From Acetobacteraceae bacterium (GTDB lineage Bacteria; Pseudomonadota; Alphaproteobacteria; Acetobacterales; Acetobacteraceae), in contig CANBXZ010000011.1 in assembly GCA_947373495.1 (NCBI GenBank), forward strand, positions 1 through 32,233: DNA of 32,233 bases, written 5' to 3'. The position numbers and the translations under genes are program-made. Position 1 is the first letter of the stretch; every line of letters starts with the position of its first letter. Shown piece after piece: positions 3,874 through 22,472 of the stretch. A model generated the notes under the pieces. The model had not been told where the DNA came from and searched no databases. It saw only the letters and a list, made by a program, of their open reading frames with translations.

Positions 3874-4836
3874 ATGCTGACGCGAAGGCTGGCGCTTGCC
3901 ACCCCCCTGCTGGCCCTGGCTGGCCGCGCCCGTGCGGCGGCCTGGCCGGAAGACCGCCCGGTGGAGATCATCATCCCCTACCCGCCCAGCGGCGGCGTGG
4001 ACACCATGGCCCGCGTGGTGCTGAACCACGTGGCGCCGCGCATCCCGGGGTTTCGCTACGTCGTCACCAACCGCGCCGGCGCCGGCGGGCAGATCGGCTT
4101 CGAGGCCACCTTCAATGCGGCGCCCGACGGCTACACCATCGGCGCCGTCACCAACAACGCCATGCACGGCCATGCCATTGAACGCCGGCCGCGCTACCGG
4201 CCGGAAGACTTCACCTTCATCGCCAACATCACCGACGACCCGGGCGCCTTCTTCGTCGACGTGAACTCGCCGTTGCAGACGCTGGCGGCGTTCCAGGCCG
4301 CGGCCAAGGCGGCGCCGGACAGCATGGGCGTGGGCACCGCCGGCATCGGCACCGACGACCACCTGCTGATGATGGGCTTCGAGGATGCCGCCGGCGTGCG
4401 CCTCATCCACGTGCCCTACAGCGGCACCGCGCCGCAGTTGCGGGACCTGCTGGGTGGCCGGCTGGCGGTGGGCTGCTTCAACATGGGCGAGGGCATCACC
4501 CTGATGCGCGAGGGCAAGATCCGCTGCCTCGGCCAGGCCGGGGAACAACGCTGGTCCGCCGCCCCGGAGATCCCGACCTTCCGCGAGCAGGGCTTCGACC
4601 TGCTGGGCGGCAGTGCCCGCGGCCTGGCCGGCCCGCCCAACATGCCGCCGGCGGTGGTGGCGAAGCTGGTCGACGCCTTCCGCGCGGCCATGGCGGACCC
4701 GGCCTATGTCGCCGAAACCACCCGCCTCGGCCTGCCGATCCGCCCGCTGGTGGGGGAGGAGTATCGCCAGATGATGGCGGCGGACTACGCCCGGCTGCGC
4801 GCGCTGTGGCAACGCCGCCCCTGGAAGGAAGGCTGA
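3874..4836 (+). CDS. Tripartite tricarboxylate transporter (TTT) substrate-binding protein, first of tandem pair
   Basis: Periplasmic Bug/TctC-family receptor, 320 aa, binding small carboxylates or related molecules. A short export signal (MLTRRLALATPLLALAGRARA) precedes the mature start AAWPEDRPVEIIIPYPPSGG; the P-(F/Y)-PPGG loop is the hallmark of the family. Further motifs are TNRAGAGGQIG, PDGYTIG and HVPYSGTAPQLRDLLGG. The start is ATG 3874, preceded by GGAGGAAA with six bases of spacing, a strong ribosome site that decides against the longer upstream reading frame. Only 2 bp separate it from a second, clearly related TTT receptor, and both end in the shared LWQRRPW. No TctA or TctB membrane genes are nearby. 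Confidence 0.93.
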   Translation: MLTRRLALATPLLALAGRARAAAWPEDRPVEIIIPYPPSGGVDTMARVVLNHVAPRIPGFRYVVTNRAGAGGQIGFEATFNAAPDGYTIGAVTNNAMHGHAIERRPRYRPEDFTFIANITDDPGAFFVDVNSPLQTLAAFQAAAKAAPDSMGVGTAGIGTDDHLLMMGFEDAAGVRLIHVPYSGTAPQLRDLLGGRLAVGCFNMGEGITLMREGKIRCLGQAGEQRWSAAPEIPTFREQGFDLLGGSARGLAGPPNMPPAVVAKLVDAFRAAMADPAYVAETTRLGLPIRPLVGEEYRQMMAADYARLRALWQRRPWKEG

Positions 4837-4838
4837 GC

Positions 4839-5819
4839 ATGCAGCGCCGCACCTTGCTCGGGGCCGCCCTGGCCGCCCCCACACTGGCCGCCCCCGCCCT
4901 GGTCCCCGCCATGGCCCAGCCGGCCTGGCCGAACGACAAGCCGGTGGAGGTCATCGTGCCCTTCCCGCCCGGCGGCGGCGTGGATGTGATGACGCGCCTG
5001 GTCATGCCGCTGGTGGCGGAACGCATCCCCGGCATGCGGGTGGTCATCACCAACCGGCCCGGCGCCGCCTCGCAGATCGGGCTGGAGGCGGTGTTCAACG
5101 CCCCGGCCGATGGCTACACCCTGGGCGCCACCACCATTCCCGCCCACAGCGCCATTCCGCTGGAACGCCCGGTGCGGTTCCGCGCGCTGGAGTTCAGCTT
5201 CCTCGCCAATATCGTGGAAGATCCGAACTGCCTGTATGTGCGGGCCGAATCGCCCCTGCGTTCGCTGGCCGATCTGGTGGCACAGGCCAAGGCGCGGCCC
5301 GGCAGCCTGGACTACGGCACCACCGGCATCGGCAGCGATGACCACATCATGATGCTGGCCTTCGAGGCCGCGGCCGGGCTGCCGCCCTTCACCCATGTGC
5401 CCTTCCCCGGCGTGGCGCCGCTGCTGCCGCAACTGCTGGGCGGGCACCTGGCCACGGCGGTGGGCAACACCACGGAACTGGTCACCCTGTCACGCGAAGG
5501 CAAGATGCGCGGCCTGGCGGTGGCCAGCGCGGAACGCCTGACGGAATTGCCCCAGGTGCCGACCTTCCGCGAGTTGGGCTTCGACATCGTGGCCGCCGCC
5601 TCGCGCGGCATCATCGGCCCGCCGGGGCTGCCGGCGAGCATCACCGCCCGGCTGGAAGCCGCCTTCGGCGCGGTGATGGCAGACCCGGCCTTCGTGCGCG
5701 AAACCGAACGCCAGCACCTGCCGCTGCGGCCGCTGCTGGGCGCCGAGTACAAGCGCATGGCGGCCGCGGTGGACGCGCACCTGCATGAGCTGTGGCAGCG
5801 CCGCCCCTGGCGAGGCTAG
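4839..5819 (+). CDS. TTT substrate-binding protein, second of tandem pair
   Basis: Bug/TctC-family periplasmic receptor of 326 aa. Signal peptide MQRRTLLGAALAAPTLAAPA continues to an AMA-type cleavage site, and the mature chain opens with WPNDKPVEVIVPFPPGGG. ITNRPGAASQIG, ADGYTLG, TTGIGSDDH and HVPFPGVAPLLPQLLGG match the first copy position by position. By eye the pair share roughly half their residues over the full length, so they arose by tandem duplication and then diverged. The ATG at 4839 follows the upstream stop by 2 bp, with GGAAGG inside the previous gene's end as ribosome site, so translation is likely coupled. Confidence 0.92.
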   Translation: MQRRTLLGAALAAPTLAAPALVPAMAQPAWPNDKPVEVIVPFPPGGGVDVMTRLVMPLVAERIPGMRVVITNRPGAASQIGLEAVFNAPADGYTLGATTIPAHSAIPLERPVRFRALEFSFLANIVEDPNCLYVRAESPLRSLADLVAQAKARPGSLDYGTTGIGSDDHIMMLAFEAAAGLPPFTHVPFPGVAPLLPQLLGGHLATAVGNTTELVTLSREGKMRGLAVASAERLTELPQVPTFRELGFDIVAAASRGIIGPPGLPASITARLEAAFGAVMADPAFVRETERQHLPLRPLLGAEYKRMAAAVDAHLHELWQRRPWRG

Positions 5820-5840: not shown

Positions 5841-7022
5841 CTACAGCCCGGCGCTTTCCAGCCGCAAGATCGCCCGCGCCATGGCCTGGGCGCGCGGCAC
5901 CATGCTGGCCACTTCCAGGTATTCCTCCGGGCTGTGCGCCTTGCCGCCCACCGGGCCCACGGCGCAGATGGTCGGCGCGCCCAGCGCCGCGGTGAAGCCG
6001 CTGTCGGCGCAGCCGCCGCTGAACTCGCCTGCCACCGTCAGGCCGCTGGCCGCCGCCGTGCTCTGGTACAGCGCGAACAGCTTGTTGCTGCTGGCGGTCG
6101 CGTTCAGCGGGCGGAACTCGCCCTTCACCGTCAGCTTCGCCTTGGTGCCGGGGATGTAGCTGCGGCCGATGATGTCGTGGATCCGGCCCATCACCTCGTC
6201 GCGGTCTTCCAACTCCACGTAACGCAGGTCGATCTGCCCCTGCGCCCAGGGCGCCACCGTGTTCACGCTCTGCCCGCCGGAAACCAGGCCGACATTCAGC
6301 GTGATGCCGCGCTTCAGGTCGGTCAGCGCATGGATGGCGGTGATCTTGGCCGCCAACTCGCCGATGGCGCTGATGCCGGCTTCGAAGTTGCCGCCGGAAT
6401 GCGCCGCCTTGCCCTCGATCTCGAACACCGAGAACACACCGCCCTTGCGCCCGGTGACCACATTGCCCGAAGGCCGGCCAGGTTCGCTGTTGAACACCAC
6501 CCGCGCCTCGCGCGCCGTCGCCTCGATGACCTCGCGGCCCTCGGGGCTGCCGATTTCCTCATCGCCGGTGAACAGCCCCAGCAGGTCGGCCGGCGCCCCG
6601 CCGAACTTCTGGAAGGCGGCCAGGACGAACATGTTCATCACCAGCCCGGCCTTCATGTCGGCCACGCCGGGGCCATAGGCGATGCCGTCCTTCACCGTGA
6701 ACGGCCGCCGCTCCGGCTCGCCCTTCGGGAACACCGTGTCGCGGTGGCCCATCAGCACGATCTTCTGCTTTTCGTTGCCACCACCCAGGGCATTGCCGCC
6801 GGCCACGCGGGCCTTCAGGCAGTCGCCATGCTTTTCGCGCGGCACCACTTCCACCGGAATGCCATGGCCCTCGCAGAACGCCTTGATCTGCGCGCCCACC
6901 GCATCTACGCCGGCCTTGTCGTAGCTGCCGCCATCGGTGTTCACCATGCGCTCCAGCGCGGCGAGCATGGTGTCGTGCTGGGTGGCCAGCCAGGCGGTGA
7001 TCTGGGTTTCGGTCTCGGTCAT
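5841..7022 (-). CDS. M20 family metallopeptidase (glutamate carboxypeptidase-like)
   Basis: Cytoplasmic di-zinc hydrolase of 393 aa resembling carboxypeptidase G2, which removes a C-terminal amino acid from N-acyl or peptidyl substrates. Metal and catalytic residues are visible: MGHRDTVFPKG (His93, Asp95), GVADMKAG (Asp122 bridging), GDEEIGS (Glu155 base, Glu156 ligand), FNSEPGRP (Glu180) and the dimerisation-domain AAHSG (His208). No signal peptide. ATG 7022 is preceded by GGAGGG at good spacing; the 107-codon upstream extension is Arg-rich and unsupported. Last gene of the leftward amidase, FAH, TTT-receptor, M20 operon, 79 bp after the receptor. The set suggests stepwise hydrolysis of an imported amide or N-acyl-amino acid. 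Confidence 0.92.
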   Translation of the reverse strand: MTETETQITAWLATQHDTMLAALERMVNTDGGSYDKAGVDAVGAQIKAFCEGHGIPVEVVPREKHGDCLKARVAGGNALGGGNEKQKIVLMGHRDTVFPKGEPERRPFTVKDGIAYGPGVADMKAGLVMNMFVLAAFQKFGGAPADLLGLFTGDEEIGSPEGREVIEATAREARVVFNSEPGRPSGNVVTGRKGGVFSVFEIEGKAAHSGGNFEAGISAIGELAAKITAIHALTDLKRGITLNVGLVSGGQSVNTVAPWAQGQIDLRYVELEDRDEVMGRIHDIIGRSYIPGTKAKLTVKGEFRPLNATASSNKLFALYQSTAAASGLTVAGEFSGGCADSGFTAALGAPTICAVGPVGGKAHSPEEYLEVASMVPRAQAMARAILRLESAGL

Positions 7023-7101
7023 GCGGCAGCCCTCCATCGCGCGGCGCGCAGCCTTGCACCGCGCGCCGCCGCCGGGAAGGCCCCGGCCTATTCCATCCCG
7101 C

Positions 7102-8112
7102 CTATTCCACCTTGCCGATGCGCTGCACCACCTGCGCCAGCCGGGCGCAATCGGTGCGGAAGAAGCTCTCGAATGCGGCGCCGTCGCGATAGTCCAGCGT
7201 GTTGCCGCCAGCCGCCAGGGCACGCCGCACCTCGGGGTCCTGCGCCGCCGTCGCCATCGCGGCACGCAGCGCGGCCTGTACCGGCGCCGGGGTGGCCGCG
7301 GGGGCGAAGACGCCGCACCAGATGTAGTATTCGCAGCCGGCAAAGCCCTTTTCCAGCAGCGTCGGCGCCGTGGGGAACTCGGCGAAGCGCTGCGTGCCCC
7401 AGCTGGCCAGCACGCGCAGCCGGCCCTCCTTCACATGCGCCGCCACCGGCCCCGGCCCACTGGACAGCGCCATCACCTGGCCGGACAGCAGCGCGGTCAG
7501 CGCCGGGGCGCCGCCCTGGAACGGCACGTGCAGCAGCTCCACCCCCGCCGCCGCGGCCAGCATCGCCATCGGCACATGCAGCGCCGAGTAGTTGCCCGAG
7601 GAGGAATAGCTGATCGCCCCCGGCCGACGCCTGGCGTCGGCGATGAATTCCTCCAGCGTCTGCCAGGGCGCGCTGGCCGGCACCACCAGGAAGGTGGGGT
7701 CGGCGGTGAACAGCGCGATCGGCGCCAGCTGGTCCAGTTCATAGGCCGGGGCGCGGTTGAACAGCCGCGCCGCTTCCGGCAGCACCGCCAGGGAGGACAG
7801 CGCCATCAGCAGCGTATGGCCATCCGGCGCCGCGCGGGCGACGAAGCTGTTGCCCAGTTCGCCGGAAGCGCCGGCACGGTTCACCACCGGCACCGGCTGC
7901 TTCCACTGGCGCTCCAGCCCCGCCGCCACCGGGCGGGCCACCACATCGGCCTGGCCGCCGGGCGGGAAGGCCACCACCAGGTTCACCGCGCGGCCCGGAA
8001 AGTCCGCGTTCTGCGCCAGGGCCAGGGTCGGGCCCAAGGCCGGGGCCGCCACGGGGGCGGCGGCCAGCGCGGCCAGCAGGGTGCGGCGCGGAACAGCCCC
8101 GGGGGTGCTCAT
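7102..8112 (-). CDS. TTT substrate-binding protein in amidase/FAH operon
   Basis: Bug/TctC-family receptor, 336 aa. Twin-arginine-containing export signal (MSTPGAVPRRTLLAALAAAP) with an Ala-rich core ending near LALAQ, then the mature start FPGRAVNLVVAFPPGGQAD. VVNRAGASGELG, PDGHTLLM and HVPFQGGAPALTALLSG follow the family order. Its ATG overlaps the stop of the upstream FAH-family gene by 4 bp (ATGA, 8109-8112), so translation is coupled. That ties the receptor's ligand to the substrate of the neighbouring amidase, FAH and M20 enzymes. Sequence divergence from the 3.9-5.8 kb pair is clear, so it is not a recent copy of them. Confidence 0.92.
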   Translation of the reverse strand: MSTPGAVPRRTLLAALAAAPVAAPALGPTLALAQNADFPGRAVNLVVAFPPGGQADVVARPVAAGLERQWKQPVPVVNRAGASGELGNSFVARAAPDGHTLLMALSSLAVLPEAARLFNRAPAYELDQLAPIALFTADPTFLVVPASAPWQTLEEFIADARRRPGAISYSSSGNYSALHVPMAMLAAAAGVELLHVPFQGGAPALTALLSGQVMALSSGPGPVAAHVKEGRLRVLASWGTQRFAEFPTAPTLLEKGFAGCEYYIWCGVFAPAATPAPVQAALRAAMATAAQDPEVRRALAAGGNTLDYRDGAAFESFFRTDCARLAQVVQRIGKVE

Positions 8113-8993
8113 GCCACCGGGTTCTCCAGCACGCCGATGCCCTCCACCGCCACGCGCACCACATCGCCCGGCTTCAGGAACACCGGCGGCTTGAAGCCGA
8201 TGCCGACGCCAACCGGCGTGCCGGTGGCGATCACGTCGCCCGGCTCCAGCGTGATGTAGCTGCTGATGCATTCGATCAGGGTGGGGATGTCGAAGATCAG
8301 GTCCTTCACCAGCACGTCCTGGCGCTTCTCGCCGTTCACATGCGTGGTCAGGTGCAGCAGCTTCGGGTCCGGCACCTCGTCGGCGGTCAGGATGGCGGGG
8401 CCCATCGGGCAGAAGCTGTCGATGCCCTTGCCCAGGATCCACTGGCGATGCTTGTGCTGCAGGGTGCGCGCCGTCACGTCGTTGACGATGGTGTAGCCGA
8501 ACACGTGCGCAAGCGCGTCCGCCTTGCTGATGCCGCGGCCGCCCTTGCCGATCACCACCGCCAACTCGCCCTCGTAGTCGGTGCTGTTCGAGGTATCGAG
8601 CTGGCTGAGGATCGGCTCGCCCGGCGCGATGATGGCGGTGGCCGGCTTGCTGAACACCACCGGCGCTTCCGGCACCACTTCCTTGGCGGAGGCGTCGAAG
8701 CCGCTGCCGGCGAATTCAGCGGCGTGCTCGTAGTAGTTCTTGCCGACGCAGAACACGTTCTTCGGCGGCCGCGGAATCGGCGCGCACAGGATGGCGCCTT
8801 CCACCACCGGGGCGGTTTCGGCGGCCTTGCGGGCATGTTCCAGCGCCGCGGCGCCGCCGCTGATGAAGGCCGGCATGTTGCCGCCGGCCAGCGCCGGGTC
8901 CACCGCCGCCAGGTCCAGCACCGCGCCATCGGCGCGCAGCGCGCCGATATGGGTGCCAACGGTGTTCGGACGCTTGAAGGTTACCAGGCGCAT
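8109..8993 (-). CDS. Fumarylacetoacetate hydrolase family protein
   Basis: Cytoplasmic FAH-fold enzyme, 294 aa, with an N-terminal domain (about 1-75) and the catalytic domain after KNVFCVGKNYYEH. The metal site is visible: TDYEGELAVVIGK gives Glu141 and Glu143, and GYTIVNDVTART gives Asp172; Glu110 to Pro116 (EAPVVFSKP) and DSFCPMGP are further family signatures. Members include 2-keto-4-pentenoate hydratases, acylpyruvate hydrolases and oxaloacetate decarboxylases; this length and the KNYYEHAAE motif fit the acylpyruvase/ureidoglycolate-lyase-like group, but the exact reaction cannot be decided. It lies 11 bp downstream of the amidase and overlaps the TTT receptor by 4 bp. Confidence 0.92.
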   Translation of the reverse strand: MRLVTFKRPNTVGTHIGALRADGAVLDLAAVDPALAGGNMPAFISGGAAALEHARKAAETAPVVEGAILCAPIPRPPKNVFCVGKNYYEHAAEFAGSGFDASAKEVVPEAPVVFSKPATAIIAPGEPILSQLDTSNSTDYEGELAVVIGKGGRGISKADALAHVFGYTIVNDVTARTLQHKHRQWILGKGIDSFCPMGPAILTADEVPDPKLLHLTTHVNGEKRQDVLVKDLIFDIPTLIECISSYITLEPGDVIATGTPVGVGIGFKPPVFLKPGDVVRVAVEGIGVLENPVA

Positions 8994-9004: not shown

Positions 9005-10414
9005 CTATTCCGGCTGGGCGAGAGGGATTTCGGCGGCGATTTCCAACGCCCGGGCGGCGCGGAACACCAGGTCGTCGCGGTACAGCGCGGCGGCCAATTG
9101 CACGGCGCGCGGCATGCCATGTTCATCCACGCCGATCGGCACGGAGATGGCGGGCTGGCGCGTCAGGTTGAAGGCGAAGGTCCAGGGCGCCCAGTCGCGC
9201 CACAGCGCCTCCACCGGCTTCAGCGTCGGCTGGTCGGCGGCGAAGGCGGCGGTGGGGGTGCAGGCGGTCAGCATCAGGTCGTATTTCTGGTGGAAGCGGG
9301 CGGCGGCGTGGGCGGCCTCGATCCGCATCGCCTCGGCGCCGAGGAAATCCACCGCGCTCATGCCGCCTTCCAGCCGGGCCACTTCGGCCAGCCCGGCATC
9401 CAGCAAATGGCGCTTTTCCTCCGGCATGGTCTGCACCAGCCGGGCCAGCGCCACGCCCCAGACCCGGCCGAAGATCTCCCGCGTGTCGGGCAGCATCGGG
9501 TCGGCTTCCTCGACGATGGCGCCCTGTTCCGCCAGCAATTGCGCCGCGCCGGCCAGGGCGGCGCGGCCGTCCTCGTCCAGCGGCGGGGCGAAGCCCAGGC
9601 GGGTCACGATGCCGATGCGCAGGCCGGCGACGCCGTCCTCGATGCCGTCGCGCCAGTCCCGCCCCAGGGAGCCAGGTTCGTCCGGCAGGCTGAACGGGTC
9701 GCGCAGGTCGTGCCGGGCCATGGCGCTGAACATCAGCGCGTTGTCGCGCACCGTGCGGGTCATCGGCCCGGCGCAGGCGACATTGGCGAAGGCGCCCAGC
9801 GGCCATTGCGGCACCCGGCCAAAGCTTGGCTTCAGCCCCACCAGGCCGCAGAACGCGGCGGGGATGCGGATGGAGCCGCCGGCATCGGTGCCGAGGTGCA
9901 GCGGCCCGAAGCAGGCGGCGCCCGCGGCACCGGCGCCGCTGCTGCTGCCGCCCACGGTGCGCTCGCGATTCCAGGGGTTGCGGGTAATGCCGTGCAGCGG
10001 GCAGTCGCCGGGGGATTTCCAGCCGAATTCGGTGGTGGTGGTCTTGCCCAAAATCACCGCGCCGGCCTGCTTCAGCCCCAGCACCGCCGGGGCATCCTCG
10101 GTCACCGGGGTGGTGGGCGTGGTCTTGCTGCCGCGCCGGGTCGGGAAGCCGGCCAGGTTCAGCAGGTCCTTCACCGTGCTCGGTACGCCATCCAGCAGCC
10201 CCAGCGGGCGGCCCGCCATCCAGCGCGCCTCGCTCTCCCCGGCGGCCTGCAGGGCCCGCGGGTTCATCACCGCGAAGGCGTTCACCCAGGGATTGAAGCG
10301 CGCCACCCGCTCCATCACCGCCTTCAGTGCCTCCACCGGGGAAAGCCGCCGCCGGGCATACAGCCCGAGCAGGGTCTCGGCGGACATCAGGGCGGGGTCG
10401 GTGGCTTCGGGCAT
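9005..10414 (-). CDS. Amidase (amidase signature family)
   Basis: Serine amidase, 469 aa, hydrolysing a carboxamide to acid plus amine or ammonia. The Ser-cisSer-Lys triad is complete: Lys82 in GVPSTVKDLLN, cis-Ser157 in TVGGSSSGAGAA, nucleophile Ser181 in GTDAGGSIRIPAAFCG; spacings of 75 and 24 residues equal those of mammalian FAAH. No export signal, so cytoplasmic. ATG 10414 has GGAAGG upstream with about seven bases of spacing; the 28-codon upstream extension lacks support. First gene of the leftward operon amidase, FAH hydrolase, TTT receptor, M20 peptidase. Divergent from the outer-membrane protein gene across 112 bp. GatA is unlikely because no GatB/GatC adjoins it. Confidence 0.92.
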   Translation of the reverse strand: MPEATDPALMSAETLLGLYARRRLSPVEALKAVMERVARFNPWVNAFAVMNPRALQAAGESEARWMAGRPLGLLDGVPSTVKDLLNLAGFPTRRGSKTTPTTPVTEDAPAVLGLKQAGAVILGKTTTTEFGWKSPGDCPLHGITRNPWNRERTVGGSSSGAGAAGAACFGPLHLGTDAGGSIRIPAAFCGLVGLKPSFGRVPQWPLGAFANVACAGPMTRTVRDNALMFSAMARHDLRDPFSLPDEPGSLGRDWRDGIEDGVAGLRIGIVTRLGFAPPLDEDGRAALAGAAQLLAEQGAIVEEADPMLPDTREIFGRVWGVALARLVQTMPEEKRHLLDAGLAEVARLEGGMSAVDFLGAEAMRIEAAHAAARFHQKYDLMLTACTPTAAFAADQPTLKPVEALWRDWAPWTFAFNLTRQPAISVPIGVDEHGMPRAVQLAAALYRDDLVFRAARALEIAAEIPLAQPE

Positions 10415-10526
10415 GCGGGCGCCTTCCGGGGTCAGGGCCGACTGTGCCGGCAGGGCCTTGCGGCAGCCCTCCGGCGGCGAGGCGCTGCGGTAGCGCAATC
10501 ACGGCGCCGCCGCTAGCCTGACGAAA

Positions 10527-11830: not shown

Positions 11831-12724
11831 ATGGCAGACCCGAAAAAGCCCTGGGAATGGCCCGAGGAGTACTGGCGCACCGCCATCAACCGCGCCCGCG
11901 CCGGCCGCAGCCTGAAGCCGCGCTGCTGGCCGGGCGGCGCCCGCTGCGCCGTGGCGCTGAGCTTTGACAGCGACCACGACACCACCCCGCTGCGCGACGG
12001 TGATGAAAGCCCGATGCGGATCAGCCAGGGCCAGTACGGCAACCGCCAGGGCGTGCCGCGCATCCGCCGCCTGCTGGACCGCCACAGCATCCGCGCCAGC
12101 TTCTACGTGCCGGCGGTGACCGCGCTGATCTACCCGGACGAACAGCGCGCGCTGGTGGATGAGGGCCATGAGATCGGCATCCACAGCTGGATCCACGAGG
12201 CCAATACCGCCCTGCCGCCCGGCGTGGAGCGCGAGCTGACGCTGCGTTCAGCCGATGTGCTGGAAAAGGTCAGCGGCCGCCGCCCGGTGGGCATCCGCAC
12301 CGCGTCCTGGGATTTCTCGGTCGATACCATGGGCATCATCGAGGAGATGGGCCTGCTGTACGACAGCAGCCTGATGGGCGACGACGAGCCCTATGAGCTG
12401 ATGGACCAGGGCCGCCCGACCGGCGTGGTGGAATTGCCGCCGGAATGGATCCGCGACGACGCGCCCTACTTCATGTTCGTGCGCTTTTCCGGCCTGCGCC
12501 CCTACACCCCGCCTTCCAGCGTGCTGGAGATCTTCAAGGCCGAGTTCGACGGCGCCTATGCGGAAGGCGGGCTGTTCCTGCTGACCATGCACCCGCACAT
12601 CATCGGCCACCGCAGCCGCATGCCGCTGCTGGAGGCGCTGGTGGAATACATCAAGGGCCATGACGGGGTGTGGTTCGCCACGCATGAGGAAGTGGCGCGG
12701 TATGCCAAGGATGAGGCGGGCTGA
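11831..12724 (+). CDS. Polysaccharide deacetylase family protein (NodB domain)
   Basis: Carbohydrate esterase family 4-like enzyme, 297 aa, with no signal peptide. The NodB motifs are present in the variant form seen in HpPgdA/PuuE-like members: AVALSFDSDHDTTP (Asp46, Asp48) in place of TFDDG, the metal-binding IGIHSWIHEAN (His118, His122), then GIRTASWDFS and LLTMHPHIIGH. The lack of an export signal argues against a classic periplasmic peptidoglycan deacetylase; an allantoinase-like or other cyclic-amide hydrolase role is possible. The ATG at 11831 has GGAG nine bases upstream. It follows the barrel protein by 20 bp and ends 13 bp from the convergent STAS gene. Confidence 0.88.
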   Translation: MADPKKPWEWPEEYWRTAINRARAGRSLKPRCWPGGARCAVALSFDSDHDTTPLRDGDESPMRISQGQYGNRQGVPRIRRLLDRHSIRASFYVPAVTALIYPDEQRALVDEGHEIGIHSWIHEANTALPPGVERELTLRSADVLEKVSGRRPVGIRTASWDFSVDTMGIIEEMGLLYDSSLMGDDEPYELMDQGRPTGVVELPPEWIRDDAPYFMFVRFSGLRPYTPPSSVLEIFKAEFDGAYAEGGLFLLTMHPHIIGHRSRMPLLEALVEYIKGHDGVWFATHEEVARYAKDEAG

Positions 12725-13125: not shown

Positions 13126-14109
13126 TCAACTGGCGACGATACCGGCGGCCCGGGCCACCCCGGTCCATTCCTTCACATAGTCGCCGATGTACTGGCTGAA
13201 GGCGGCGCCCACCAACGGCGCCGGCGGCGGGTAGCTCGCCAGGTCGGCCAGCTTCTGGCGGATCTCCGGGTTGGCCATGGCGGCCACGGTCACCTCGGTC
13301 AGCCTGGCCGCGATCGGCGCCGGCAGCGCCTTGGGGCCGGAAATGCCGATCCAGGTGGTGCAGGTCAGCCGCGGCAGGCCCAGTTCGGCGAAGGTCGGCA
13401 CCTCCGGCACCGCCGGCACCCGGGCCGGGGTGGAAACCGCCAGCGCCCGCAGCGTGCCGTCCTTCAGCATGCCGACATAGGTGGTCAGCGGGTCGAACAG
13501 GCTTTCGATCTGGCCGGCCAGCATGTCCTGCAAGGCCGGGGCACTGCCGCGATAGGGCACGTGGTCCAGCCTGGTCAGCCCGGCTTCCTTGCCCAGCACC
13601 TCGCCCATCAGGTGGGTGATGCTGCCGATGCCGCTGCTGCCGTAGCGCACGCCGCGCGCCGACTTCGCCGCGGCGATGTAGTCCGCCATGGTCTTGATCG
13701 GGCTGTCCGCCCGCACCATCAACGCATTGCCGGTGTCGCACATCATGGCCAGGTGGCTGAAGTCGGCCACCGGGTCATAGGGCAGTTGCGGGTAGATGCC
13801 GGGGGCGATGCCGTGCGGGCTGGCATGGCTGACCACCAACGTATAGCCATCCGCCGCGGCCTTGGCGCACATGTCGGCGCCGATGCTGCCGCCGGCGCCG
13901 GCGCGGTTTTCCACCACCACCTGCTGGCCCAGCGCCGCGCTGAAGGCCGGGGTCAGCAGGCGGGAGACGGTGTCGGCCAGGCCGCCGGGCGGGAAGGTGA
14001 CGATCAGCCGTATCGGCATGCGGCTGGGCCAGGCGGCCCCTTGGGCGCGCAGCAGGCCGGGCGAGGCCAGGCCGGCGGCAGCCAGGCCCAACAGGTGGCG
14101 TCGTTGCAT
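13126..14109 (-). CDS. TTT substrate-binding protein next to decarboxylase-like gene
   Basis: Bug/TctC-family receptor of 327 aa. Export signal MQRRHLLGLAAAGLASPGLL ends near LRAQG, and the mature chain opens PSRMPIRLIVTFPPGGLAD. VVENRAGAGGSIGADM, ADGYTLVVSHAS, RYGSSGIGSITH and HVPYRGSAPALQDMLAG follow the family order. I chose ATG 14109, preceded by GGGAG with eight bases of spacing, over an in-frame GTG nine bases upstream. It is 95 bp downstream of an arylmalonate-decarboxylase-like gene on the same strand, probably one transcript. That suggests the ligand is a small dicarboxylate or a 2-substituted acid. Confidence 0.92.
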   Translation of the reverse strand: MQRRHLLGLAAAGLASPGLLRAQGAAWPSRMPIRLIVTFPPGGLADTVSRLLTPAFSAALGQQVVVENRAGAGGSIGADMCAKAAADGYTLVVSHASPHGIAPGIYPQLPYDPVADFSHLAMMCDTGNALMVRADSPIKTMADYIAAAKSARGVRYGSSGIGSITHLMGEVLGKEAGLTRLDHVPYRGSAPALQDMLAGQIESLFDPLTTYVGMLKDGTLRALAVSTPARVPAVPEVPTFAELGLPRLTCTTWIGISGPKALPAPIAARLTEVTVAAMANPEIRQKLADLASYPPPAPLVGAAFSQYIGDYVKEWTGVARAAGIVAS

Positions 14110-14204
14110 GGGTGGCACTCCCGTTCACCAGAAAGCCGGGGGAACTGCCTGCGCCGTGGGCATTGCGGCGCGCGCGGTTCCGGTCGCGGCCGGACGGTGG
14201 CGGA

Positions 14205-14990
14205 CTACGCAAGCCGCGTGCCGAGCCTGGCCTTCCAGCCCTCGCCGGCGATGCAGGCGCGCAGCGTCGCGGCGCTGGGGGCCGCCGGGCGCAGCACCGC
14301 CTCCGCCACCCGCCACGCCAGGGCGAGCATGGAGGAGATCACCGGCACCCCGCCATGCGCCGGGTACTGGGCGATGCTGCCCAGCGTGGGCATGCCGGTG
14401 CCCAGCAGCACCACCGCATCCACGCCCGAGGGGTCCAGTGCCTCCAGCGCCAGCGTCGCCTCCGGCGATCCCAGGGCATAGATCGGGTGGAAGGCGTCGG
14501 CCGGCAGCGGCACCCGGGCCAGCCGCACCACCTCGAAGCCGCGGCTTTGCCAATAGGCCACGCTGGCCTCGGTCACGTCGTCCGGGTAGGGCGAAACCAG
14601 CCCCAGCCGGCGCGCCCCCAGCGCCACCAGCGCATCCCGCACCGCCCGGGCGGCGGTGATGAAGGGCACGTCCAGCCGCTGTTCCAACTGGGCCACCAGC
14701 ACGTCCTCGGCAGCGGCGCCGCAGTAGTAGGAAGCGCCGGTGACAGCCAGCGCATAGGCGGTGACCGGGGCGTTGTTCACCTGCGCCAGGGTGGCGTCCA
14801 ATGCCTCCAGGTATTGCCGCATGCGGGTGGCCACGCTGGCCTCCGCCTGGCCGACCAGCCGGGCCGCCACCCAGCCGACGCCGGGCGGCAGCAGCAGCGA
14901 CGCCTCGGCCTCCACCGTGGTGTTGGCGGGCGGCACCAACAGGCCCACCAGCCCGGCACGGGCGTATTCCAGCGGGAAAGGCTGCTTCAT
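14205..14990 (-). CDS. Arylmalonate decarboxylase / maleate isomerase superfamily protein lacking both catalytic Cys
   Basis: Asp/Glu-racemase-fold protein, 261 aa. The N-terminal GLVGLLVPPANTTVEAEA is the maleate-isomerase/AMDase opening, and AVTGASYYCG (residues 82-91), LVSPYPDDVTEASV (131-144) and VVLLGTGMPTLGSI (193-206) align with the AMDase active-site loops. In that alignment, done from memory of the family, the position of the isomerase first Cys (AMDase Gly74) is Val83 and the position of AMDase Cys188 is Gly197. Thr84 and Tyr135 of the carboxylate-binding pocket are kept. The one nearby Cys, Cys90, falls where AMDase has Arg81. So the fold and anion pocket persist without the normal cysteine acid/base. 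It precedes a TTT receptor in an apparent operon. Confidence 0.8.
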   Translation of the reverse strand: MKQPFPLEYARAGLVGLLVPPANTTVEAEASLLLPPGVGWVAARLVGQAEASVATRMRQYLEALDATLAQVNNAPVTAYALAVTGASYYCGAAAEDVLVAQLEQRLDVPFITAARAVRDALVALGARRLGLVSPYPDDVTEASVAYWQSRGFEVVRLARVPLPADAFHPIYALGSPEATLALEALDPSGVDAVVLLGTGMPTLGSIAQYPAHGGVPVISSMLALAWRVAEAVLRPAAPSAATLRACIAGEGWKARLGTRLA

Positions 14991-15157: not shown

Positions 15158-16507
15158 TCAGGCGGCGCGGAAATCCGCCAGGAAGCTTTCCATCGCGCCG
15201 CGCAGCTCGGCTGCCTGCGCCGCCTGGCCGGCGGCGGCGTGCAGCACCTGCACCGCGGCCTGGCCGGTGCTTTGCGCCCCGGTGCCCACGCCGGTGATGT
15301 GCGCGCTCACCTCCCGCGTGCCGGTGGCCACGTCCTGCACGCTGCGGGCAATCTCCTGCGTCGCGGCGCCCTGTTGCTCGATGGCGGCGGCGATGGCGGT
15401 GGCCACCTGGTTGATGTCGCCGATGGTCTGGGTGATGCCGCCAATGGCCTGCACCGCCTGCTGCGCCGCGGCCTGCAGGTCGCTGACCTGCTGGCTGATG
15501 GTCTCGGTGGCCTTGGTGGTCTGCGCCGCCAGGTTCTTCACCTCGCTGGCCACCACGGCGAAGCCCTTGCCCGCATCGCCGGCCCGGGCCGCCTCGATGG
15601 TGGCGTTCAGCGCCAGCAGGTTGGTCTGCGCCGCCACCTGGCCGATCAGCCCGACCACATCGCCGATCCGCTCCGCGCCACTGGCCAGGGCATGCATGAT
15701 GGTGTCGGTCCGCCGGGTATTCTCCACCGCCTGGTCCGTGGTGCGGGAGGAATGCGCTACCTGGCGGGAGATTTCGTTGATCGAGGCGGTGAGTTCCTCG
15801 GCCGCCGTGGCCACCGTCTGCACCCCGGCATTGGCCTGCTCGGCGGCGCCGGCCACCATGGTGGCCTGGGCGGAGGTTTCATCGGCCGTTGCGCTCAGCG
15901 CCTCGGCGGTCAGCTTCAACTCCCCGGCCTGGCTGGCCATGCCGCCGACCAGGCTGGAGAACTGGCCCTCGAACCGGTCCGCCAGGGTGCCGATGCGGCG
16001 GTCGAACCCGGCCTTGTTCTCCTCGATATAGATCGAGATGGCGATGTCCATGTCCAGCATCACCGCCTGGCTGAGCGCGTTCAGCAGCACCGCGGTGCGT
16101 ACCGCCGCCGCCGCCGGGTGCAGCCGGCTGCTGTATTGCGCCGCCGCCAGGGCATAGACCTTGCCCATGATGAAGCTGTAGCCGCCGATGTACCAACGCG
16201 GCTCCAGCCCGATGCGGCTGTGCATCTGGCCGATGCGGCGGACCGAGGCGACATAGGCGTCATCGAAGCGGCCGGAGAACAGCGCCATCCAGTGGCCCAG
16301 CTGGGCCTTGGAAGCGCGCTCCATGCCCGCCTTGCCCTGGAAGCGCGCCGCCAGCGCAGGCCATTGCTCCAGGTGCCGGTAGAAGCCGGCCATGATCTCC
16401 GGCAGGCCGCGTTCCAATGCCGGCATGAAATCCGCCAGGGCCTGACGGCTTGCCTCCGTCCAGCCGATGAAGGCGACACGGTCCTGGATTTCGGCACTGA
16501 GAGACAC
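15158..16507 (-). CDS. Globin-coupled methyl-accepting chemotaxis protein (HemAT-like, soluble)
   Basis: Haem-based oxygen/redox chemoreceptor of 449 aa from the preferred start. A globin-coupled-sensor domain fills about residues 14-165: MAGFYRHL places Tyr43 at the distal position, and [20 protein letters not shown] places His96 as proximal haem ligand, a spacing close to DosC and AfGcHK. A coiled-coil MCP signalling domain follows, with the conserved tip [20 protein letters not shown] near residues 295-314. No transmembrane segment is present, so it acts in the cytoplasm. There is no C-terminal CheR-binding pentapeptide. GTG 16507 has GGAG eight bases upstream; the in-frame GTG at 16528 has its purine run too close. 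No che genes are nearby. Confidence 0.9.
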
Positions 16508-16604
16508 GGGCGATACTCCATGCGGCACCCCCCCTTGATGGGAAGGCTGCCACCTGAGTTAGCGCCCGTTCCGGTAAAGCAGCGGCTAACGCCGCCCCCG
16601 CCCC

Positions 16605-21486: not shown

Positions 21487-21500
21487 CTAAGGTGGCCGGC

Positions 21501-22472
21501 ATGTCATACGTCCAACTCCCCCGCCGCGCCCTGCTGGGCGCGCTGGCGCTGCCCGCCATCGCCCGTGCCCAGGATTCCTGGCCCAACCGGCCGGTGAAGA
21601 TCGTGGTGCCCTTCCCGCCCGGCGGGTCGAACGACACCATCGCCCGGCCGCTGGCGGAACGCCTGACGCGCCAGCTGGGCCAGCCCTTCGTCATCGAGAA
21701 TCGCGGCGGCGCCGGCGGCAGCATCGGCGCCGGCACGGTGGCCCAGGCCCCGGCGGATGGCTACACGTTGATGGTCACCTCCAGCAGCTTCCCCACCAGC
21801 GCGGTGCTGCAGAAAACCCCCTGGGATGCCGAGGGCAGCTTCGACGCCATCGCCCTGCTGGCCCGCGCGCCGTTCTTCCTGATGGTCAACCCGCGCTTCG
21901 CCGCGCAGGACGTGCAGGCGCTGGTCAAGCTCAGCCAGGAACGCCCGGGCAGCGTGGACTACGGCACCTCGGGCGCTGGCGGCATCAACCACTTCATCAC
22001 CGAATACTTCTGCCTGCAGGCCGGCATTCGGATGAACCACATTCCCTACCGCGGCACCGCGCCGGCGGTGACCGACCTGATGGCCGGCAACATCAACCTG
22101 ATGCTGACCACGGTGGCCAGCGCCAACGCCGCCATCCGCGAAGGCCGGGTGCGCTGCATCGCCGCCACCGCCGAAGGCGGCGACCTGCCGCCGGGCGTGG
22201 CCCCGGTGCGCACGGTGAAGCAGCAGGGCGTGGACTACGAGGTTTCGATCTGGTGGGGGCTGCTGGCGCCCAAGGGCGTGCCGGAGGCGCTGCGCCGCAC
22301 CATCCACCGCGCCTGCGCCGAAGCCGTGGCCGACACCAACCTGGCCCGGATCTACGACGCCGAGGGCGCCAAGCCGGCCACCGACCCCTTCGGCAGCTTC
22401 GCCCAGGTGCTGCACAGCGACCTGGAACGCTGGCGCCGGGTGAAGGAAGCCGCCAATATCCGGGCAGAATGA
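21501..22472 (+). CDS. TTT substrate-binding protein coupled to CoA-transferase
   Basis: Bug/TctC-family receptor of 323 aa. Signal MSYVQLPRRALLGALALPAI ends at ARAQD, and the mature chain opens SWPNRPVKIVVPFPPGGSND. VIENRGGAGGSIGAGT, ADGYTLMV, DYGTSGAGGINHF and HIPYRGTAPAVTDLMAG are family blocks. ATG 21501 is preceded by AAGGTGG; GTG 21492 is in frame, 5 bases after GGAGGG, and cannot be excluded. The stop codon overlaps the start of a CaiB/BaiF CoA-transferase by 4 bp (22469-22472), so the two are translated together. The ligand is therefore probably a carboxylic acid that is activated to its CoA thioester after uptake. Confidence 0.92.
   Translation: MSYVQLPRRALLGALALPAIARAQDSWPNRPVKIVVPFPPGGSNDTIARPLAERLTRQLGQPFVIENRGGAGGSIGAGTVAQAPADGYTLMVTSSSFPTSAVLQKTPWDAEGSFDAIALLARAPFFLMVNPRFAAQDVQALVKLSQERPGSVDYGTSGAGGINHFITEYFCLQAGIRMNHIPYRGTAPAVTDLMAGNINLMLTTVASANAAIREGRVRCIAATAEGGDLPPGVAPVRTVKQQGVDYEVSIWWGLLAPKGVPEALRRTIHRACAEAVADTNLARIYDAEGAKPATDPFGSFAQVLHSDLERWRRVKEAANIRAE

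Follow-up and report, generated by a model that had tools for sequence, protein, structure and literature searches.

The window analysed here, by which we mean the whole stretch of 32,233 nucleotides from an Acetobacteraceae bacterium (contig CANBXZ010000011.1 of assembly GCA_947373495.1), carries a gene for a protein of the arylmalonate decarboxylase (AMDase)/maleate isomerase fold. The open reading frame is intact, has an ordinary ATG start and lies in a run of genes that includes several hydrolases (Table 1). Genes were called with a custom script that scores GC content by codon position; it may overlook small genes and places some starts wrongly, and the contigs compared are partial. A receptor of the tripartite tricarboxylate transporter (TTT) family adjoins the gene, as the earlier note had proposed, and the two are probably carried on the same transcript. 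TctC also adjoins the AMDase-like gene in loci L053-L055, and in L056 the next called gene is the STAS-like one.

Table 1. Features of the window. Coordinates of codons 83 and 197 were computed from the start of the open reading frame.
Feature	Coordinates	Strand	Remarks
AMDase/maleate-isomerase-fold protein, "GTG" group, Val83/Gly197	14205..14990	(-)	261 aa
Codon 83, GTC (Val), first-Cys site	14742..14744	(-)	ATC (Ile) in 4 congeners; Cys in 21/29 clade members
FHPIY motif, residues 167-171	14478..14492	(-)	loop aligned with AMDase 156-160; His168 and Tyr171 invariant (29/29)
Codon 197, GGC (Gly), second-Cys site (AMDase Cys188)	14400..14402	(-)	Gly in 29/29 clade members
Codon 220 (PVLSCM)	14331..14333		Cys220 in 18/21 Cys83-bearing rows, Ser in 6/6 Val/Ile rows
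TctC, tripartite tricarboxylate transporter receptor	13126..14118	(-)	PF03401, 203 bits; 86 bp downstream
STAS-like protein, 110 aa	12738..13070	(-)	kept in five of five genus members; STAS assigned by eye
Polysaccharide-deacetylase/PuuE-like hydrolase (CE4)	11831..12724	(+)	near the gene in 8/29 clade loci
Amidase, amidase-signature family	9005..10498	(-)	near the gene in 7/29 clade loci
Fumarylacetoacetate-hydrolase-family (FAH) protein	8109..8993	(-)	in 7/29 clade loci
M20 carboxypeptidase-like hydrolase	5841..7037	(-)	common to window, L061 and L065 loci
Protoglobin fused to chemotaxis (MCP) signalling domain, globin-type sensor	15158..16528	(-)	just upstream of the AMDase-like gene
TctC-like receptor	3874..4836
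TctC-like receptor	4806..5819
TctC-like receptor	7102..8112
TctC-like receptor	21492..22472

Several other features of the window stood out. Its five TctC-like receptors, one confirmed by Pfam and the others assigned by clustering or by eye, are unusually dense. The PuuE/CE4-like hydrolase, whose nearest solved structure is 3rxz, is 93-98% identical among congeners and is the most conserved gene of the cluster, and among genes that can be clearly matched in all four congeners, the protoglobin-MCP gene (74-77%) diverges most.

A Pfam scan of the window protein returned PF17645 (Amdase) at 78.1 bits against a cut-off of 25.9 and PF01177 (Asp_Glu_race) at 36 bits against a cut-off of 31, and NicE, AMDase and the Nocardia maleate isomerase were among its phmmer matches in the PDB. 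An AlphaFold2 model built from seven sequences (pLDDT 79.5, pTM 0.85) matched the maleate isomerase 2xed best (Z 23.7, 229 residues, 2.9 Å), with further matches to NicE (Z 23.1), AMDase 3ixl (Z 21.9) and allantoin racemase (Z 15.3); besides the N-terminal residues, the least certain part of the model was the FHPIY segment, at pLDDT <50. Both profile and fold place the protein in the Asp/Glu racemase superfamily. It scored below the curated cut-offs of the AMDase equivalog NF052327 (82.7 vs 225 bits) and of the EutA model TIGR02990 (45.9 vs 318 bits). The window protein clearly shares its fold with AMDase and maleate isomerase, yet does not qualify as a member of either family.

The earlier note, whose residue matching was approximate, held that neither catalytic cysteine of this superfamily is present. 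Alignments bear out the matching, with AMDase Gly74, Thr75, Tyr126 and Cys188 falling on Val83, Thr84, Tyr135 and Gly197, and an HMM of Cys-bearing orthologues alone puts their conserved cysteine on Val83, the position of the first isomerase cysteine. With Val83 and Gly197 at the two sites, both catalytic cysteines are indeed missing. NicE Cys200 falls, depending on the alignment, opposite Gly197 or in an adjoining one-residue gap, neither neighbour of which is a cysteine. Two cysteines occur elsewhere in the protein, at positions 90 and 246, and neither is conserved: in the other five rows of the Val/Ile subclade described below the Cys90 column reads V, V, V, V, T, and the Cys246 column has M in four, the fifth being missing where a contig ends. 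The idea that a displaced Cys90 serves as catalyst did not survive this comparison, as it recurs in 0 of the other 28 clade members (1/29 rows in all), and Cys246 was rejected in the same role as likewise unconserved. A sequencing or assembly error at codon 83 was also rejected, given that four congeners have Ile at this site and a further relative, L008, has Val. No Cys-bearing copy was seen in the organism's own genome (85% complete), which contained two other matches, at 26% and 24% identity; the former, the one read at the two Cys sites, has Met and Gly there.

In a maximum-likelihood tree of 44 rows, the window protein fell within a clade of 29 orthologues (support 100/98). The second-Cys site is Gly in all 29, and the first site holds Cys83 in 21, Val or Ile in 6 and Thr in 2. 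All 6 Val/Ile rows group together in a single clade (100/99), and the two Thr rows are each other's closest relatives (100/100). The closest relatives of the window protein are four congeners, 80-82% identical to it, with Ile83 (codon ATC), and a fifth protein, 66% identical, with Val83; none of them has Cys90. Loss of Cys83 is derived and occurred in at least two events, because Cys is also found in most of the nearest outgroup rows and the Cys-less rows lie on two separate starred branches. The earlier note had stated that its reading would fall if close homologues all carried the cysteines, and had asked whether Val83 and Gly197 mark a conserved clade and whether Cys90 is invariant. The outcome is divided: the nearest relatives lack the first cysteine, which 21 of the remaining 23 clade members retain, and the second is present in 0/29; Gly197 holds across the clade, Val83 is confined within it to a subclade where it occurs along with Ile, and Cys90 is not invariant.

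Arg44, Asn23, Thr84, Gly85, Tyr88, Ser133, Tyr135, His168, Tyr171, Thr198 and Gly199 are invariant in the clade, and Pro125 (AMDase numbering) is found in 28 of its members. A different cysteine, Cys220, is kept by the Thr83 pair and was lost alongside the first in the Val/Ile rows (Table 1).

Residues at the two sites were also tabulated in a survey of 167 homologues, made up of 150 family-level rows and 17 from class and phylum searches, related loci and a plasmid record. The letter pairs at positions 83/197 were CC 52, CG 27 (26 without row L022, a broken or shifted reading counted as Cys83), GC 15, other+Gly 63, AC 4, AS 4 and DA 2. Judged from these sequences, Cys-free members of the fold are common, both cysteines being absent in 69/167 homologues and in 65/150 of the family rows, fractions that are biased upward by a Cys-less query. 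Other Cys-free subfamilies were encountered (for example L098, L002 and L109), with Gln83+PGGN, with Met/Val/Ile83+VGTN, one of which is in the organism's own genome (G000 C211), or with Asp83+ATD.

A GTG group, with Gly-[Thr/Ser/Val]-Gly at positions 197-199, takes in 57 of the 169 aligned rows (the 167 plus two references); Gly at the second site, which defines the group, is found in 57/57. In a FastTree tree from which L022 was omitted, a branch with support 97 sets the 56 other rows of the group apart. Tyr171 is found in 55/57 GTG rows vs 0/112 others, and Tyr88 in 56/57 vs 0/53 CC and 0/16 GC rows. In held-out plasmid sequences both tyrosines were present in 5/5 of the GTG type and either of them in 0/6 of the non-GTG type, and in held-out phylum loci Tyr88 or Tyr171 occurred in 0/28 non-GTG rows. 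One event in an ancestor may underlie this correlation. The window protein carries the signature in full, with G197-T198-G199, Tyr88 and Tyr171. Arg56 was considered as a third signature residue and dropped, being present in 56/57 survey rows yet absent in 3/5 held-out GTG rows. Residue 83 is labile in the group (C 27, I 7, L 7, H 7, V 4, T 2, F 2, M 1).

A phylum search with a GTG profile, from whose longer match list 30 loci were taken, gave the window and one known row as GTG type and 28 others as CC (24) or GC (4), and the group looks rare outside Alphaproteobacteria. It does occur in 5/11 plasmid-record sequences (Shinella, Rhodococcus twice, Streptomyces and Nonomuraea), from 10 of 14 new plasmid records, H4, H5, H7 and H13 having been left out as near copies. 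In three of the loci on Rhodococcus and Streptomyces plasmids (L237, L238 and L241) a GTG "arylmalonate decarboxylase" lies beside ArgC and a RimK-family ligase, and the Streptomyces record adds annotated LysW and LeuA-family genes; an amino-group-carrier pathway is possible for these ArgC/RimK loci. Public records name GTG-type members "hypothetical protein" or "arylmalonate decarboxylase", no curated NCBIfam model scored above threshold for the 21 GTG-group members scanned, and a search of the PDB, with 4ix1 set aside, found no solved structure of the group.

Between the window gene and its congeners dN was 0.139-0.154 and dS 0.41-0.57, from which we computed dN/dS ratios of about 0.27-0.34; among the congeners the ratio was 0.10-0.23. 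Conserved columns, defined by agreement in 20 or more of the 21 Cys-bearing rows, number 54; the six Val/Ile rows all keep 45 of them and differ at 19, 21, 57, 71, 83, 129 and 139, and two further columns are missing in L008, a row cut by a contig end. The Cys-less copies remain under purifying selection. With dN/dS well below 1 and the reading frame open in the six Val/Ile rows (in L008 as far as the contig end), a decayed gene is not favoured. The window gene has evolved faster than most of its neighbours (80-82% identity to the congeners vs mostly 84-98%), with the MCP gene as the main exception, and this is compatible with some possible relaxation of constraint.

Gene neighbourhoods were compared across the 29 clade loci. 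Within seven genes of the AMDase-like gene, TctC was found in 18 loci, an ABC ATPase in 11, an FAD monooxygenase in 11, a CE4/PuuE-like hydrolase in 8, an amidase in 7, an FAH protein in 7, an isochorismatase in 5 and a nitrile hydratase in 4. The FAD monooxygenase loci include nine Cys-bearing members and both Thr-bearing ones (L073/L074). The order AMD-TctC-CE4-amidase-FAH-TctC-M20 is common to the window and the Cys-bearing L065, and nearly so to L061, although further genes are interspersed and the AMD gene is turned the other way relative to the rest. ABC transporter genes precede the Val-bearing L057, as they do the Cys-bearing L085 of a Roseomonas haemaphysalidis plasmid. In L037 the clade gene is followed by genes for a methylisocitrate-lyase-like protein, an isochorismatase-family hydrolase, an FAD monooxygenase, whose best PDB matches are PnpA and then HspB of nicotine breakdown, and an aconitase-family protein; this layout resembles the aromatic and N-heterocycle ring-opening routes that end in maleate-like acids, the setting of NicE. 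It is mainly because Cys-bearing and Cys-less members share pathway settings that a working enzyme is preferred over a dead one.

A nitrile hydratase open reading frame, in which the beta-N and alpha parts are fused (tested in L061:8381-9382), lies next or close to the Cys-bearing orthologues L058, L059, L061 and L065. For the window cluster itself, a cyclic-imide route, in which a PuuE-like imidase, an amidase and an isomerase would act by way of a cis-dicarboxylate, is kept only as an idea; it draws on the existence of imidases of the PuuE type, and a literature search on such a route returned nothing useful.

Three possibilities had been offered in the earlier note for a Cys-free member beside a TTT receptor: a different chemistry, use of the displaced Cys90, or a binding protein. 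We favour the first, because the remainder of the pocket is retained in the Cys-less copies, which are under purifying selection and share gene neighbourhoods with Cys-bearing relatives. Our tentative reading, in which we place a little less than even confidence, is that of a catabolic enzyme acting on a dicarboxylate by oxyanion-hole chemistry that needs no thiol and is probably assisted by Tyr. It would be a cofactor-free enzyme of a scavenging or catabolic cluster, together with the TctC receptor, the PuuE-like hydrolase, the amidase and the FAH hydrolase. The substrate would be a small dicarboxylate. The conserved N-terminal loop and an oxyanion hole (Asn23, Thr84, Tyr135 and Thr198) would bind one of its carboxylates, and an enediolate or enediolate-like state would then be protonated or tautomerised by a non-thiol group. 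In the GTG group Thr84 and Tyr135 of the hole persist together with the isomerase-like Asn23, no thiol is present at 188 (AMDase numbering) and the one at 74 is optional. Near the two sites along the chain, the remaining conserved polar residues are Tyr88, Thr198, Tyr171 and, within the 29-row clade, His168; from this we infer enediolate chemistry in which a tyrosine would transfer the proton. The best candidate for proton transfer would be Tyr171, on a lid loop with His168 and on the face of AMDase Cys188, with Tyr88 on the opposite side of the pocket; Tyr171 is a candidate only, because the loop from which it would reach into the pocket is modelled at pLDDT <50. Alternatively, the two tyrosines may serve in substrate binding and not in proton transfer. 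In the scheme proposed here, the Cys83 that related members carry would be a dispensable addition, not the essential catalyst.

As to how this arrangement arose, it is possible, though we would put the chances at about one in three, that in the GTG branch tyrosine took over proton transfer from cysteine. The second cysteine would have been replaced by Gly for good, with the lid Tyr171 and Tyr88 in place, so that the first was free to become Val, Ile, Leu, Thr, Phe, Met or His, and the window protein would be a fully thiol-free working end point.

By analogy with engineered AMDase, losing both cysteines could well kill catalysis. According to passages of PMC12576825, moving the cysteine from 188 to 74 (G74C/C188S) lowers AMDase activity 20,000-fold, and changes to the pocket raise it again ~9,500-fold. 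Cys83 does matter in most members of the clade, because it is kept in 21/29. It is conceivable, although on balance we think it unlikely, that the Cys-bearing members use Cys83 as a covalent nucleophile in the manner of maleate isomerase and that the Val/Ile subclade is a derived pseudoenzyme, binding a dicarboxylate for sensing, sequestration or regulation. The derived loss of a residue so widely kept fits such a history, as does the faster evolution of the window gene, and, according to the title of a structure entry, crystals of maleate isomerase with one Cys changed (C194S) contained a covalent succinylcysteine at the other Cys. Set against this, the 45 columns kept in the six Val/Ile rows include N23, T84, G85, S87, Y88, S133, Y135, H168, Y171 and T198; position 83 is non-Cys in many other GTG-group lineages; and the Pfam scan of the window protein found no regulatory domain.

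A quite unlikely alternative is that residue 83 is used in no member, Cys83 being a pocket-lining or redox-sensitive residue, and that a single reaction, on substrates that differ slightly, is catalysed by Cys-bearing and Cys-less orthologues alike. These two sorts of orthologue share gene order and families of neighbours, and eight different letters occur at the site within the GTG group, both of which agree with this; yet Cys at 21/29 is more than a neutral lining residue would need, and the same site holds the catalytic cysteine in racemases and in (S)-selective AMDase variants, according to passages of PMC4996985 and PMC12576825. That Cys-bearing members are natural "mirror-image" AMDases (Cys74/Gly188) decarboxylating substituted malonates, with Val/Ile members relying on protonation by solvent, we regard as improbable: C74 (21/29), P125 (28/29) and G188 (29/29) do reproduce three of the six changes V43I/G74C/A125P/V156L/M159L/C188G, with Phe and Ile at 156 and 159, but Asn23 (Ala17 in AMDase) and Arg44 are isomerase-like, AMDase pocket residues L40, V43 and Y48 are Gly, Ala and Met here, His168 and Tyr171 occupy the 156-160 loop, and A125P merely restores the common Pro of the family.

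To our knowledge, the characterised members of this fold (AMDase, maleate isomerase, and the hydantoin, allantoin and Asp/Glu racemases) are all explained by one or two cysteines. Our analysis suggests that the chemistry of the window protein does not rest on cysteine. What is new is less a single Cys-free protein than a group without the second cysteine, with two conserved tyrosines, in which the first cysteine has been lost in places. The group is monophyletic, has the second Cys replaced throughout and treats the first as optional, and it offers a testable case of catalytic-residue loss with pathway context kept. The Cys-bearing members naturally have a Cys74/Pro125/Gly188 layout that engineers had to build for (S)-selective AMDase, and may be new starting points for biocatalysis. 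Among the papers listed in searches of the open-access literature, none was seen to describe an AMDase/maleate-isomerase group free of Cys, or members with Cys74/Gly188 in nature, which is weak evidence of absence.

Among known systems, the maleate isomerases (NicE/Iso of Pseudomonas putida S16, 4fq7/4fq5, and the Nocardia farcinica enzyme, 2xec/2xed) are the best fold matches of the window protein (Z 22.9-23.7). It has Asn23, Pro134 and Tyr135 in common with NicE; Asn23, in the N-terminal loop, and the domain Tyr135 align with the NicE residues that bind the carboxylates. The clade genes of L037 and L038 each sit with an FAD monooxygenase and an isochorismatase-family hydrolase. Maleate isomerase differs in having both catalytic cysteines where the window protein has Val83 and Gly197; two-Cys rows lack Tyr88 and Tyr171, both of which are conserved in the window's group, and identity to maleate isomerase is about 25%. 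The ectoine utilisation protein EutA (TIGR02990) matches 21/21 of the scanned GTG-group rows weakly, and none of the genes examined next to the window gene is an ectoine gene.

According to passages of PMC4996985 and PMC6563808, the hydrophobic pocket of AMDase expels a carboxylate, a dioxyanion hole holds the resulting enediolate and Cys188 delivers the proton, and the related racemases have a second Cys at 74. With the Bordetella bronchiseptica enzyme the window protein shares the fold (Z 21.9), Pro20-Pro21, Thr84 and Tyr135. Its adjoining TTT receptor also has a parallel in the AMDase clusters TTT-I to V described in PMC4996985. Compared with the residues given in Table 4 of PMC4996985, the P14 P15 pair is present as P20 P21 (P-Q in the clade at large); the proton donor C188 and G74 are replaced by Gly197 and Val83; the dioxyanion hole (T75 S76, Y126, G189) retains T84 and Y135 and differs at S76 (G85) and G189 (T198); and the hydrophobic pocket L40, V43, Y48, V156 and M159 reads G47, A51, M57, F167 and I170, the alignment of 40-48 being uncertain. 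The engineered (S)-selective AMDase V43I/G74C/A125P/V156L/M159L/C188G is without the extra conserved tyrosines of the GTG group, and the window protein is without its cysteine; the likeness is one of residues only, in that Cys74, Pro125 and Gly188 occur naturally in the Cys-bearing members of the clade.
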